From positions 1 to 42,525 of the forward strand of contig JAVHLY010000007.1 of the NCBI GenBank assembly GCA_031081585.1: 42,525 nt of DNA, in the 5' to 3' direction. Each line of letters begins with the position of its first letter. The stretch's first letter is position 1. The translations under genes and the position numbers were made by a program. The notes under the pieces are model-generated. The model searched no databases and had not been told where the DNA came from. It was given only the letters and a program-made list of their open reading frames with translations. Source of the DNA: Armatimonadota bacterium. GTDB taxonomy: Bacteria; Sysuimicrobiota; Sysuimicrobiia; Sysuimicrobiales; Humicultoraceae. Below are positions 26,631-31,420 of the stretch, piece after piece.

Positions 26631-26659
26631 TCGACAGCGCTCGCCGGATATGCGATAAT
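26631..26659 (+). promoter_or_regulatory. sigma-70-type promoter with extended -10
   Basis: TCGACA (26631-26636), a 17-bp spacer, then GATAAT (26654-26659) preceded by TGC, an extended -10. Transcription would start near 26666 and read the small gene at 26725 and the LAGLIDADG-like gene. It is one of the best promoter matches in this GC-rich window. Confidence 0.6.
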
Positions 26660-26724: not shown

Positions 26725-26898
26725 GTGAGGAAACCCAAGGTCGGCGATCGCGTCTGGTGGAAGCAGGCCCAGCAGGCCCAGTCGGGCGTGGTCATCGCGG
26801 TGCGCCGTGACGGGACCACCACGGTCCGGCACGACGACGGGCGCGAGGTCGAAGTCGGGCTCGACCGGATCTACCGGCGCGAGCGCGTCAAGGCATGA
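26725..26898 (+). CDS. small basic protein, likely SH3/KOW-like beta fold
   Basis: 57 residues, rich in Lys/Arg and Val. It reads RKPKVGDRVWWKQAQQAQSG, VVIAVRRDGTTTVRHDDGRE and VEVGLDRIYRRERV. The strand pattern KxGDxV...G.V......T.V..DDG.E.EV.LD.I resembles small SH3-like or KOW-like domains that bind nucleic acid or proteins; this is inference from pattern. GTG 26725 is preferred over ATG 26677 because GGAAAGGGG lies 7 nt upstream of it. The stop overlaps the ATG of the next gene (ATGA type, 26895-26898), so the two are coupled. Confidence 0.6.
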   Translation: MRKPKVGDRVWWKQAQQAQSGVVIAVRRDGTTTVRHDDGREVEVGLDRIYRRERVKA

Positions 26899-27710
26899 AC
26901 ACCCGCCCGGCCCTCGTCACGCTCCGCCCGCAGGAAATCTACGCCATGCACGAGGCCCGCGCCCGCGGCGAGTCGGAGCGCCAGATCGGCGAGCGCTTCG
27001 GGCGCCCGGTCAGCGAGGTGCAGCAGTTCCTGCGCCCTCAGTCGGCCACGCGCATGCCCGTGCCCTACCACCTCCACCACAGCGACCCTGCCGCCGACGT
27101 GCGGGTGGCGATGTACTGGCTGGGGTTCATCACCGGGGCCTGGGGCCGCATCTACCACCGGGCCGTCCCCTACACCCTGGTGCTGCCGGTGGCGCGGGAC
27201 GAGGTGGAGTACCTGCGTGTGCTGCTGCGCGACCTGACGGCGAGCCACGCCACCTACGAGATCTGCCACAGCAGCCGGTTCGGCGACGAGGCTTACGTGC
27301 GCGACCATGCCCTCAGTGCCGCCCTGCTCCAGTGGGGCGTGGCGGAGCAAGCCCCCGCGCCGGTGGCCGTCGAGTACGTCTCCGACGCCGCCCTCCCCCA
27401 CTTCACGCGGGGCCTCCTCGAGGGGCAGCGCGGGCGCGGCGAGGCGCACACCTTTACGGACGGCGGCGACCGGGTGGCGCTGGTGGCGAGCGCGGAGGTG
27501 GTGACCGCGCTGGCCGGCCGGTTGCCGGAGCAGGAGCGCGCCCTCAAGGGGACGGTGGAGGTCGGGACCCCCGAGGGCGCCGCCACGCTGCGCTTCCGCG
27601 GCCCGGCGGCGCGGGCCCTGCTGGCCTGGCTCTACGCCGATCCCGTCCGTTCCAGCCCCCGGGCGCAGCGCCTGGCGGCAGCCTACGGGGCGGCCCGCCA
27701 CACCGGCTAA
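26895..27710 (+). CDS. HTH plus LAGLIDADG-like protein, probably not a nuclease
   Basis: 271 residues. Residues 9-47 form a helix-turn-helix (RPQEIYAMHEARARGESERQ, IGERFGRPVSEVQQFL). Two LAGLIDADG-type repeats follow: MYWLGFITGAWGRIYH (73-88) with YTLVLPVARDEVEYLRVLL, and FTRGLLEGQRGRGE (170-183) ending in ALLAWLYADP and a basic RAQRLAAAYG tail, the arrangement seen in homing-endonuclease folds. The acidic catalytic position of each motif (usually ADG/GDG) is replaced (GAWG; GQRG), so DNA cutting is unlikely. A DNA-binding regulator derived from a homing endonuclease, as with WhiA, is the best inference. It is coupled to the small protein upstream. The 3' end overlaps the convergent desaturase gene. 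Confidence 0.55.
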   Translation: MNTRPALVTLRPQEIYAMHEARARGESERQIGERFGRPVSEVQQFLRPQSATRMPVPYHLHHSDPAADVRVAMYWLGFITGAWGRIYHRAVPYTLVLPVARDEVEYLRVLLRDLTASHATYEICHSSRFGDEAYVRDHALSAALLQWGVAEQAPAPVAVEYVSDAALPHFTRGLLEGQRGRGEAHTFTDGGDRVALVASAEVVTALAGRLPEQERALKGTVEVGTPEGAATLRFRGPAARALLAWLYADPVRSSPRAQRLAAAYGAARHTG

Positions 27711-28732
27711 CCGGCTTCTTCCACCCGCAATCCGTGTCCCAGGACGGGCGAGACGTGCCCGGAGCGGGGGTCGACCAGCCGCACGTTGTCCAGGTAGAGC
27801 CGGGGCGTCCGCCAGAGCAGCCCCAGCGCCCGCCGCAGCGGCATCTCGTGGTAGCGGTGCGGCCAGAGGTCCCGCAGCAGGCGTTTCACCTCGGGGAGGT
27901 AGCGCGCGCTCATGGCCGGGAAGATGTGGTGCTCCGTGTGGTGGCTGAAGTTTCCGTGCAGGACGTCCAGCAGACGGGGCACGGTCACGCTCAGCGACCC
28001 GGCGAGGGGGTCGTCCTCTTCCAGCAGCGGGTTCAGCAGGTGGTTCGTGGCGATGTAGGCCATCACCACGAAGTTCCCCACCAGCAGCGGGATCACGTAG
28101 AAGTACGGGAGGGCGTCCCACCCCAGCCACCATCCCAGGAGCGTCCAGGCCGCCATGGGGCCGGCGAACTGGGTCAACAGCAAGAGGCGTTCGCGCCCAC
28201 GCTCCCGGCGCAGCGCTCCCACCAAGATGATCCAGGAGTGGATGCTTAGCCAGACCGCGAGCATGGCGAAGAACCCGACGCTCCTCACCGGGACCAGCCG
28301 GTGGAGCAGGCGCAGGGCGGGGCGCCGGTGGTACTGCTCCAGGGTGCTGTAGGCGTCGGGGTCGCGTCCGGCGATCTGGGTGTGGCCGTGGTGCTCGACG
28401 TTGTGCCAGCGCCGCCACAGCCGCGGTCCGATGCCGCTGGGGAGGAGGCAGACCGCCCCCAGCAGGTCGCGGACCCAGGGGCGCCGGACCACGCCGCCGT
28501 GGAGGATCTCGTGCCCGAGGAACCCCAGGGAGGCGTAGGCCATGCCGATGGTCACACCCAGGAGGACCCTGGCCGGCACCGGCAGGTCCCACGCGGCGAT
28601 GGCCCAGGTCCCTGCGGCCCCGACCAGGGCATAGGGCAGGATCCAGAGCGCCCGGGCGGGCACGGGGCGGAAGACGTGCGGCGGCAACCGCTTGCGCAGT
28701 TCGCGCACGTAGGTGCGATGGGGGCTCTCCAC
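27707..28732 (-). CDS. membrane fatty acid desaturase
   Basis: 341 residues. All three histidine boxes of the di-iron desaturase/hydroxylase family are present: GHEILHG (HxxxH), RRWHNVEHHGH (HxxxHH) and NFSHHTEHHIFP (HxxHH), with membrane segments between them (ALVGAAGTWAIAAWDLPVPA; LLTQFAGPMAAWTLLGWWLG; YFYVIPLLVGNFVVMAYIA). The enzyme would introduce a double bond into acyl lipids using O2, or modify carotenoids or sterol-like lipids. The start is GTG 28732 with AGGAGG 6 nt upstream. It implies aerobic or microaerobic life alongside the B12-dependent RNR. Confidence 0.88.
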   Translation of the reverse strand: MESPHRTYVRELRKRLPPHVFRPVPARALWILPYALVGAAGTWAIAAWDLPVPARVLLGVTIGMAYASLGFLGHEILHGGVVRRPWVRDLLGAVCLLPSGIGPRLWRRWHNVEHHGHTQIAGRDPDAYSTLEQYHRRPALRLLHRLVPVRSVGFFAMLAVWLSIHSWIILVGALRRERGRERLLLLTQFAGPMAAWTLLGWWLGWDALPYFYVIPLLVGNFVVMAYIATNHLLNPLLEEDDPLAGSLSVTVPRLLDVLHGNFSHHTEHHIFPAMSARYLPEVKRLLRDLWPHRYHEMPLRRALGLLWRTPRLYLDNVRLVDPRSGHVSPVLGHGLRVEEAG

Positions 28733-29046: not shown

Positions 29047-29421
29047 ATGGCCGTCAGGGCAGCGTTGCGCCGGGAAGGCACCTGCGAGACCTACCACGTC
29101 GACGAAGCGAAAGTCCGGAAGGTCCGCCGCCAGCTCCAGGATGAGGGTCGCTTCGAGGCGGTCGCCCGGATGTTCCAGGTCCTCGCCGATCCCACGCGCG
29201 CCAAGTTGCTCTTTGCCCTCGCCCAAGAGGAGTTGTGCGTCTGCGACCTGGCCAGCATCGTGGCGCGGAGCCGCCCCGCCGTCTCCCACCAGCTCCGTCT
29301 CCTCAGGGACCTGAAGCTGGTCAAATACCGTCGGCAGGGCCAGATGGCCTACTACGCGCTGGCCGACGAGCACGTCCGGCACCTCATCCAGGAAGGGCTC
29401 GACCACGCCGCGGGCTCCTGA
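29047..29421 (+). CDS. ArsR/SmtB-family metal-sensing repressor, CadC-like
   Basis: 124 residues. The winged HTH spans 38-105 (FQVLADPTRAKLLFALAQEE; SIVARSRPAVSHQLRLLRDL). Metal ligands resemble CadC: Cys13 in the N-terminal TCETYH, and Cys64/Cys66 in the alpha-3 motif ELCVCD. The second N-terminal CadC cysteine corresponds to His17 here, suggesting altered metal preference (Zn, Cd, Pb or Co). Asp107/His109 and His120 match the alpha-5 Zn site. ATG 29047 follows a purine-rich GGGGAGGGTGGTGAGG. It lies after the promoter and dyad and before the P-type ATPase, the usual autoregulated layout. Confidence 0.88.
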   Translation: MAVRAALRREGTCETYHVDEAKVRKVRRQLQDEGRFEAVARMFQVLADPTRAKLLFALAQEELCVCDLASIVARSRPAVSHQLRLLRDLKLVKYRRQGQMAYYALADEHVRHLIQEGLDHAAGS

Positions 29422-29461
29422 TGAGCGCATCGCGGCGCGTGCGGATCACGGCCGCGTCGTC

Positions 29462-31420
29462 GTGATCCACCCCCGGGCCGGGCGACCGCATGACCCCATG
29501 AGCCAGGCGAGCGGCGAGGCAGAAGTCAGCGCCTACGGTGGGGCCTGGTGGCGGTTCCCCGCCATGCGCGATGCGCTGGCGGGCGGAGCGCTCATCGCCC
29601 TGACCTTGGCCCTCTCCCACCTGCTGGGCTTCGGGCGTCTGGAGCCGTTCGGCTACGCCGCGGCCGCGGTCCTGGGAGGGCGCCACTTCGTGAGGGAAGG
29701 GTGGCGCGGGCTGTGGAGCGAGCGCCAGGTGGGCGTCGAGATCTTGATGAGCGCGGCCGCCGTGGGGGCCGCCCTCCTGGGCCTGTGGGACGAGGCCGCC
29801 GTCCTGGTCTTCCTCTACGCCACGGCGGAGGCGCTGGAGGAGTACGCATACGCTCGGACGCGGTACGCCATCCGGGGGCTGCTGGATCTGGCGCCCAGGG
29901 AGGCGCGCCTCCTGCGAGACGGTCGGGAGGTGACGGTCCCGGCGACGCAGCTCCGGCCGGGGGATCGGTTTGTGGTTCGCCCGGGGGAGGCCATCGCCAC
30001 CGATGGGGTGATCCTGGAAGGGACCTCCACGGTGGACGAGTCCCCCGTTACCGGCGAGTCGATGCCGGTGGACAAAGTCCCCGGCACGCAGGTCTTCGCC
30101 GGCAGCCTGAACACACAGGGCGCGCTGGTCGTGGAAGCCACCGCCTCCTGCGAGGACAATACCCTCTCGAAGATCATCCACCTCGTGGAAGAGGCGCACG
30201 AGCAAAAAGGGCGCCTGCAGCGCTTCATCGAGCGCTTCAGCCGGTGGTATTCCCCGACGGTGCTCGTCGCAGCCCTCCTCTTCCTGGTCGTCCCACCGCT
30301 CTTCGGCCAGCCGGTCATGCCCTGGGCGCTGCGGGCCATGGTGCTGCTGGTGGCGGCGGCTCCCTGTGCGCTCGTCATGTCCACGCCGGTCGCCGTCGCG
30401 GCGGGCATCGGCATCGCCGGGCGGAACGGCGTCCTGATCAAGGGCGGGCTTCACCTGGAGAACCTCGGCCGGGTTCGGGTCGTCGCTTTCGACAAGACGG
30501 GCACGCTCACGACAGGGAGGCCGGAGGTTACGGACATCGTGCCGCTCGACCGGATCAGCCCGGCAACCCTGCTGGGTCTGGCCGCGGCGGTCGAGCGCTT
30601 CTCGGAGCATCCGCTGGGGGAGGCCATCGCCAGGCGAGCGGACCAGGAAGGCGCACCGCGCGTGCCGGTGGCGGCGTGCCGGGCGCTGCCTGGCCTGGGC
30701 ATCGAGGCCGAGGTCGACGGCCAGCGGGTCGTCGTGGGCAGCCCCGCCTGGCTCCGGCAACGCGGCATCATCCTGGAGGCCGCGCAGCCCGCCATTGAGG
30801 CGCTCCACCGCCAGGGCAAGACCGTCGTCGGCGTTGCCCGGAACGGCACGCTCCTGGGCCTGTTGGCGATGCGCGACCAGCTTCGCCCGGTCGCCCGGCC
30901 GACGGTCGCTCGCCTCCACCGTCTGGGCGTGAAGGTGGCCATGCTGACCGGCGACCATGCGGACACGGCGGCCGCCATCGCCCGGGAGTTGGGCATCGAC
31001 CACGTCCACGCCGAGTTGCGGCCCGAGGACAAGGTCCGGTACATCAGGGAGCTCGAGGCGCGCGAGGGCGCGGTGGCCATGGTCGGTGACGGGATCAACG
31101 ACGCTCCGGCGCTGGCAGCCGCCACCGTCGGTATCGCCATGGGCGCCGCGGGGACCGATGCGGCCATCGAGGCGGCTGATGTCGCCTTGATGGCGGACGA
31201 CCTGCCGAAGGTCGTCTACGCCATCCGCCTGGGTCGGGCGGCCCGCGCCATCAGCCGTCAGAACATAGTCTTCTCGCTCCTCGTCCTGAGCCTCCTCATC
31301 CCCGGCGCCATCGGTGGCATCGTCACGGTGGTCCTCGCTGTGGTCGTCCATGAAGTGAGCGAACTGCTCGCGGTGGCCAACGGGCTGCGGGTGGCCAGAT
31401 TCCGACCCACCGAGGCCTAG
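29462..31420 (+). CDS. P1B-type heavy-metal efflux ATPase
   Basis: 652 residues from the first GTG (640 from ATG 29498; neither has a good ribosome site). No N-terminal CxxC metal-binding domain is present. The core motifs are intact: TGES in ESPVTGESMPVDKVPGTQ, the phosphorylation site FDKTGTLTTGRPE, SEHPLGEA, TGDHADTA and MVGDGINDAPALAAA. The transmembrane metal motif reads AAAPCALVMSTPVAVAAG, so APC replaces CPC (Zn/Cd/Pb) or SPC (Co). The C-terminus has VVVHEVSELLAVANGLRVAR. It should pump a divalent metal out of the cell, controlled by the adjacent CadC-like repressor. Its stop overlaps the convergent URO-D gene. Confidence 0.93.
   Translation: MIHPRAGRPHDPMSQASGEAEVSAYGGAWWRFPAMRDALAGGALIALTLALSHLLGFGRLEPFGYAAAAVLGGRHFVREGWRGLWSERQVGVEILMSAAAVGAALLGLWDEAAVLVFLYATAEALEEYAYARTRYAIRGLLDLAPREARLLRDGREVTVPATQLRPGDRFVVRPGEAIATDGVILEGTSTVDESPVTGESMPVDKVPGTQVFAGSLNTQGALVVEATASCEDNTLSKIIHLVEEAHEQKGRLQRFIERFSRWYSPTVLVAALLFLVVPPLFGQPVMPWALRAMVLLVAAAPCALVMSTPVAVAAGIGIAGRNGVLIKGGLHLENLGRVRVVAFDKTGTLTTGRPEVTDIVPLDRISPATLLGLAAAVERFSEHPLGEAIARRADQEGAPRVPVAACRALPGLGIEAEVDGQRVVVGSPAWLRQRGIILEAAQPAIEALHRQGKTVVGVARNGTLLGLLAMRDQLRPVARPTVARLHRLGVKVAMLTGDHADTAAAIARELGIDHVHAELRPEDKVRYIRELEAREGAVAMVGDGINDAPALAAATVGIAMGAAGTDAAIEAADVALMADDLPKVVYAIRLGRAARAISRQNIVFSLLVLSLLIPGAIGGIVTVVLAVVVHEVSELLAVANGLRVARFRPTEA

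Follow-up and report, generated by a model that had tools for sequence, protein, structure and literature searches.

An HTH-LAGLIDADG protein family without catalytic acids in Sysuimicrobiota, very probably a domesticated homing endonuclease

A coupled two-gene unit and its products

The window, that is, the whole 42,525-nucleotide stretch of DNA that was analyzed, contains a promoter, two overlapping genes on the forward strand and a convergent gene, laid out as follows.

26,631–26,659, + strand: sigma-70-like promoter (TCGACA, 17 nt, TG-extended GATAAT), preceding both genes of the unit
26,725–26,898, + strand: gene for a 57-aa basic protein predicted to form a Tudor/SH3-like barrel (GTG start, pI 10.8)
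26,895–27,710, + strand: gene for a 271-aa protein with a predicted helix-turn-helix (HTH) and double LAGLIDADG fold lacking the catalytic acids (fold model, alignment, tree)
26,928–27,032, + strand: N-terminal HTH, residues 12–46 (family HTH matches and model)
27,114–27,146, + strand: first LAGLIDADG motif, YWLGFITGAWG, residues 74–84 (W83 at the catalytic Asp position in the alignment)
27,249–27,305, + strand: repeat-1 beta hairpin, residues 119–137 (S126, G130, Y134 and R136 invariant in the family)
27,402–27,431, + strand: second LAGLIDADG motif, FTRGLLEGQR(G), residues 170–179 (Q178 at the catalytic position in the alignment)
27,707–28,732, − strand: fatty-acid desaturase (PF00487), convergent and overlapping the stop of the 271-aa gene; the only desaturase of the genome

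The initial annotation had described a coupled two-gene unit driven by a strong promoter, and our results agree with the coupling and the promoter. The stop codon of the 57-aa gene overlaps the start codon of the 271-aa gene as ATGA, an overlap that two relatives retain in the form GTGA, and the promoter matches at 10 of 12 positions (0.0 such sites expected by chance), with its −10 region, TGC[GC]ATAATA, kept in two relatives. Farther along the window, at 29,047–31,420, an ArsR-type regulator precedes a P-type (E1-E2) ATPase; the two probably form a common pair for metal resistance.

The AlphaFold2 model of the 57-aa protein is a five-stranded barrel (pLDDT 89.8) whose nearest folds are Tudor/Agenet domains, which bears out the earlier reading of a small SH3-like protein. 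It shares its small size, basic character and five-stranded barrel with the Tudor/SH3-like mini-proteins (Hva1_TUDOR-like, Agenet/Tudor folds) but, in contrast to these, reached no family cut-off; a PDB sequence search likewise gave no significant match. In what follows, f1, f2 and f7 denote host families and g1 (the window genus), g2 and g6 denote genera. Orthologues of the 57-aa protein that are 77–82% identical, and coupled too, occur in g2; outside g1 and g2, we found none except one marginal match (E 0.005), and the contig of the sister genus g6 stops short of the partner's position. Thus, of the proposed gene pair, the coupling holds here and in g2, but the small protein is found in two genera against 17 of 22 for the LAGLIDADG protein. 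We therefore rejected the SH3 protein as the general partner of the family; it is probably a lineage-specific accessory that lies outside the family definition.

For the 271-aa protein, AlphaFold2 produced a model (pLDDT 85, pTM 0.87) with an N-terminal HTH (helices at residues 12–23, 28–35, and 39–46) and two LAGLIDADG-type alpha-beta repeats (approximately residues 67–250); it was run on a mixed alignment that included intact LAGLIDADG enzymes and therefore depends in part on that homology. The top Foldseek matches of the model in the PDB were I-Tsp061I (E 6.8e-5), I-DmoI (TM up to 0.70), WhiA (E 3e-3), and other LAGLIDADG proteins, and the maturases bI3 and I-AniI as well as viral endonucleases were also among the matches. 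Further, hhalign of the family against one phage LAGLIDADG_3 enzyme gave 97.9%, and 27 of 28 members matched PHROG 4645 (annotated "endonuclease"). Structure prediction and profile comparison, which the initial annotation had named as checks on its double LAGLIDADG framework, both brought out LAGLIDADG similarity rather than the lack of it. We assign the window protein to the LAGLIDADG proteins because its relatives and its fold point there, not through a match of its own: searched alone, it matched no LAGLIDADG model by sequence in Pfam, NCBIfam, or PHROG. The N-terminal HTH was likewise upheld, by the model helices and by matches of five family members to HTH_23 (best E 3e-4) and of one to IclR-HTH (2.8e-5).

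An active enzyme carries one catalytic acid per LAGLIDADG helix. As had been read from the sequence, GAWG and GQRG replace these acids in the window protein, with W83 and Q178 aligned to the two catalytic positions. The position of W83 is A, S, C, or T in relatives, and motif 1 of the window protein carries a one-residue insertion; the position of Q178 is G, S, or N in relatives and occasionally D. Overall, the results indicate that the family almost certainly has a LAGLIDADG fold and has lost its catalytic acids.

Distribution and origin of the family

Sysuimicrobiota is a little-known phylum of soil and hot-spring bacteria. At the time of its description, the phylum (CSP1-3/ANGP1) was uncultivated (PMC11604079). 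A profile search located the family in 32 of the 43 genomes of the Sysuimicrobiota (CSP1-3) order, representing 17 of 22 genera, with intact open reading frames at 23–45% identity across these 17 genera and often two family genes per genome in host family f7; a whole-genome search at a loose threshold returned homologues in 34 of 61 genomes. The family has no name in Pfam or NCBIfam, and no member reached the Pfam cut-off of LAGLIDADG_3 (PF14528). A single-sequence scan of the genome contig collection and a tblastn search of phage records returned no relative; the pattern scan of the genome contigs used a narrower alignment (A4), the first alignment being too diverse. Most members are strongly basic. 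The family motifs read YWxGF/Y[IL]xA[ASCT]GR, then [FV]RGYLEG[GSQ] or GYxDGx, and the motif-1 acid is missing from every aligned member; the motif-2 acid occurs in a minority, the f7 members L019, L022, L023, and L026 having kept D.

Several loci show irregularities or additional small genes. In G035, the family member (L021; G035:C36:3951-4666) falls into two overlapping frames, and the one in G026 (L025; G026:C176) has no HTH, through sequencing error, frameshift, or real truncation. On G022 contigs C95, C96, C140, and C149 (L138–L141), two family genes are each interrupted by contig ends and lack their middle third, a pattern that would arise if assembly had collapsed a central part identical in two paralogues. 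A small Lys/Arg-rich protein, NYxxxKRxxELKxKAKRxAKLARxxAR, adjoins f7 genes (L135:7154-7351, L136:670-918, L126:8673-8987), the one copy examined having no Pfam match, and a winged-helix-like small protein with a weak HVO_A0261_N match lies directly upstream of some f7 members (L125:8698-8928, L137:1865-2101).

Iterated searches led to phage, archaeal, and bacterial contigs with LAGLIDADG proteins, many of them with an N-terminal HTH and with both motifs intact (YWLGFIAADG and RGYFDGDG). Unlike the family members, these relatives (L031, L041, L043, and others) match LAGLIDADG_3: eight of the nine intact ones examined pass its cut-off, and the ninth falls just below. In a maximum-likelihood tree, the inactive members formed one clade against all intact ones (support 100/100), the subclades of which largely track host families; the window protein is divergent, with a terminal branch of 0.96. 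The DG motifs are kept in the three profile matches outside the order and in the weaker matches inside it. No acid-less relative outside the order was found among the viral contigs and other genomes examined, and candidates beyond the order were set aside because those examined keep the DG motifs. Within the family, dN/dS values of 0.06–0.28 in close pairs indicate purifying selection. Because the inactive proteins form one clade, the DG motifs persist outside it and dN/dS is low, the catalytic loss is most simply a single event in the common ancestor of the family or earlier, with retention under selection thereafter.

Separately, the window genome (G000) carries LAGLIDADG_3 domains inside open reading frames of 1004 and 1364 aa (G000:C14:62500-67500, L128, and G000:C2:134226-134711), with motifs intact in the 1004-aa frame; these are probably inteins, and insertions of this kind seem to be frequent in the phylum. 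In two viral-contig LAGLIDADG_3 endonucleases (L031:3551-4588 and L059:2282-3403), a cysteine-rich repeated N-terminal region replaces the HTH.

Taken together, the family retains the double LAGLIDADG fold of homing endonucleases (model, Foldseek, hhalign). Where a mobile enzyme would be expected to show patchy spread, residence in an intron or intein, or free-standing insertion, the family forms one clade following host families. We conclude that the family is very probably a domesticated homing endonuclease that no longer cuts.

Neighboring genes and possible function

Established genes of cold adaptation in bacteria include those for CspA, RRM proteins, DEAD-box helicases, and desaturases. 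A CspA gene lies within 600 bp of the family gene in 8 genomes and within 1.2 kb in 9, compared with 0.06–0.12 expected under random placement, a model that ignores shared descent and operon clustering; counting the three or four independent CspA arrangements only, P = 3.5e-5 to 5e-7 (600 bp). Each of the ten f2 genomes has exactly one RRM gene, which adjoins a whole or fragmentary family gene in nine; in the tenth, G023, the family gene was not found. At the f2 loci, a DEAD-box helicase gene typically comes after the RRM gene. Clear desaturases occur in just 8 of the 43 genomes, and in three f1 genomes, from g1 (the window), g2 (one of its two genomes), and g6, the sole desaturase adjoins the family gene convergently; in g6, a CspA gene precedes the convergent desaturase. 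In the window, the desaturase is convergent and not co-transcribed with the family gene. Cold-type neighbors are missing at several loci (e.g. L116, L121, and L124), the lineages that show them are not independent of one another, and thermophily proxies separate the host families with and without the gene too weakly to count in its favor. A literature search returned nothing relevant that joins LAGLIDADG homing endonucleases with cold shock. These neighbors, which the initial annotation did not mention, are more informative than the SH3 partner. The association, which is one of gene neighborhood, is correlative, and we regard a cold or RNA-stress context for the family gene as evenly balanced between true and false.

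Conservation within the protein bears on what it might bind. Conservation is higher in the repeat-1 hairpin than in the HTH recognition helix (mean top frequency 0.75 versus 0.45), which suggests the hairpin as a candidate ligand-contact surface. Because conservation peaks there and not at the recognition helix, the saddle may still touch a constant ligand, and DNA recognition through the HTH is no obvious candidate for the function that stays constant in the family.

The explanation that we favor, with moderate confidence, is a domestication independent of but similar to that of WhiA, giving rise to a regulator, probably of transcription, that would bind nucleic acid and be linked to cold adaptation. 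Under this explanation, a phage- or mobile-type HTH and LAGLIDADG_3 homing endonuclease in an ancestor within Sysuimicrobiota would have lost the acid that binds metal in motif 1, and as a rule the one in motif 2 too, and would then have been retained as a chromosomal gene. Its descendants, unable to cut, would have kept the ability to bind nucleic acid by way of the N-terminal HTH, the LAGLIDADG saddle, or both, and would most likely act as sequence-specific, WhiA-like transcriptional regulators of nearby and related genes. The recurrent CspA, RRM and DEAD-box, and desaturase neighbors would make adaptation to cold or RNA-structure stress the putative regulon, and in the window genome and g2, translational coupling would have added the Tudor/SH3-like mini-protein as a lineage-specific accessory. 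That the family is a DNA-binding regulator of some kind appears likely. Of the homing endonuclease turned regulator proposed initially, the origin is thus supported by the fold, the HTH, the link to intact enzymes, the acid loss, vertical inheritance, and selection, and the analogy with WhiA and the gene neighborhood make the regulatory role plausible. The most specific version, a second independent LAGLIDADG domestication besides WhiA, from a phage-type HTH-LAGLIDADG_3 enzyme, as a cold-response regulator acting on DNA or RNA, is put forward tentatively and is somewhat less probable than its negation.

It is quite possible that the CspA, RRM, and desaturase neighborhood is incidental and that the protein regulates other things, for example general chromosome or cell-cycle functions of the kind that WhiA is reported to have. 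Such neighbors are missing beside several members, and arrangement and orientation vary; against this, the enrichment is far over expectation, comes in several arrangements and involves three cold-type gene families. Alternatively, the saddle might bind RNA, so that the protein would serve as an RNA chaperone or a maturase-like factor that acts on structured RNA together with CspA, RRM, and DEAD-box proteins. Some organellar LAGLIDADG maturases act on introns, and such a role would agree with the RNA-remodeling neighbors, the structural matches to bI3 and I-AniI, and the higher conservation of the saddle hairpin. We nevertheless consider it unlikely, as a module for DNA binding, the HTH, is conserved at the N terminus and adjacency does not reveal a substrate. 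An atypical nuclease or nickase that uses other acids, or one active just in the f7 branch, is very improbable: the four f7 members with D at the motif-2 catalytic position and the E or D that is common two residues before it would allow for one, but no member has a motif-1 acid, the canonical LAGLIDADG mechanism uses one acid from each motif, and the family is inherited vertically as a clade rather than with patchy mobility. Finally, a decaying, functionless relic is scarcely credible, since the divergence and motif-1 insertion of the window protein, the missing HTH in G026, and the split frame in G035 have to be set against dN/dS values that show purifying selection in every close pair, intact frames throughout the 17 genera, and conserved fold residues, promoter, and coupling; a pseudogene reading was rejected on the same dN/dS values.

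Comparison with known systems

The regulator that we favor has its closest known counterpart in WhiA, a transcription factor in actinomycetes that combines an HTH with a LAGLIDADG domain without catalytic residues; the role of this degenerate endonuclease domain has been stated as unknown (PMC3781837). WhiA (DUF199; PF14527 LAGLIDADG_WhiA and PF02650 HTH_WhiA) and the present family both join a degenerate double LAGLIDADG domain to an HTH and are chromosomal and vertically inherited, and the WhiA structures 3hyj and 3hyi match the window-protein model in Foldseek. However, the HTH is N-terminal and homeodomain/sigma-r4-like in the family but C-terminal in WhiA, no family member matched the LAGLIDADG_WhiA or HTH_WhiA models by sequence, and the closest sequence relatives are the phage and archaeal HTH-LAGLIDADG_3 enzymes, not WhiA. 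Orthology with WhiA was rejected because HTH_WhiA was found in none of the 43 genomes; since domain order and sequence also differ, we class the family as an independent WhiA-like domestication.

The HTH-LAGLIDADG_3 (PF14528) enzymes (for example L052, L053, and L043) share the domain order, with the homeodomain-like HTH first, the YWLGF.. motif next and the RG..DG.. motif last, and are alignable over nearly the full length. They keep Asp in both motifs, whereas the family has A, S, C, T, or W in the first and mostly G, S, Q, or N in the second, stays short of the LAGLIDADG_3 cut-off and makes up a separate clade from these phage, archaeal, and bacterial enzymes. The monomeric I-DmoI and I-Tsp061I have the duplicated LAGLIDADG alpha-beta repeat that is predicted in the family (TM up to 0.70 to I-DmoI); the family differs from them in the absence of catalytic acids, in the extra N-terminal HTH and in sequence (about 12–15% identity).

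The family thus provides a first regulatory lead in Sysuimicrobiota. Together with its intact relatives, it can show by which route selfish nucleases turn into genes of the host and whether a dead saddle serves DNA, RNA, or protein contact. Among bacteria, WhiA has been the familiar example of a transcription factor derived from a homing endonuclease, and the present family, whose HTH lies at the opposite end, offers a comparison.
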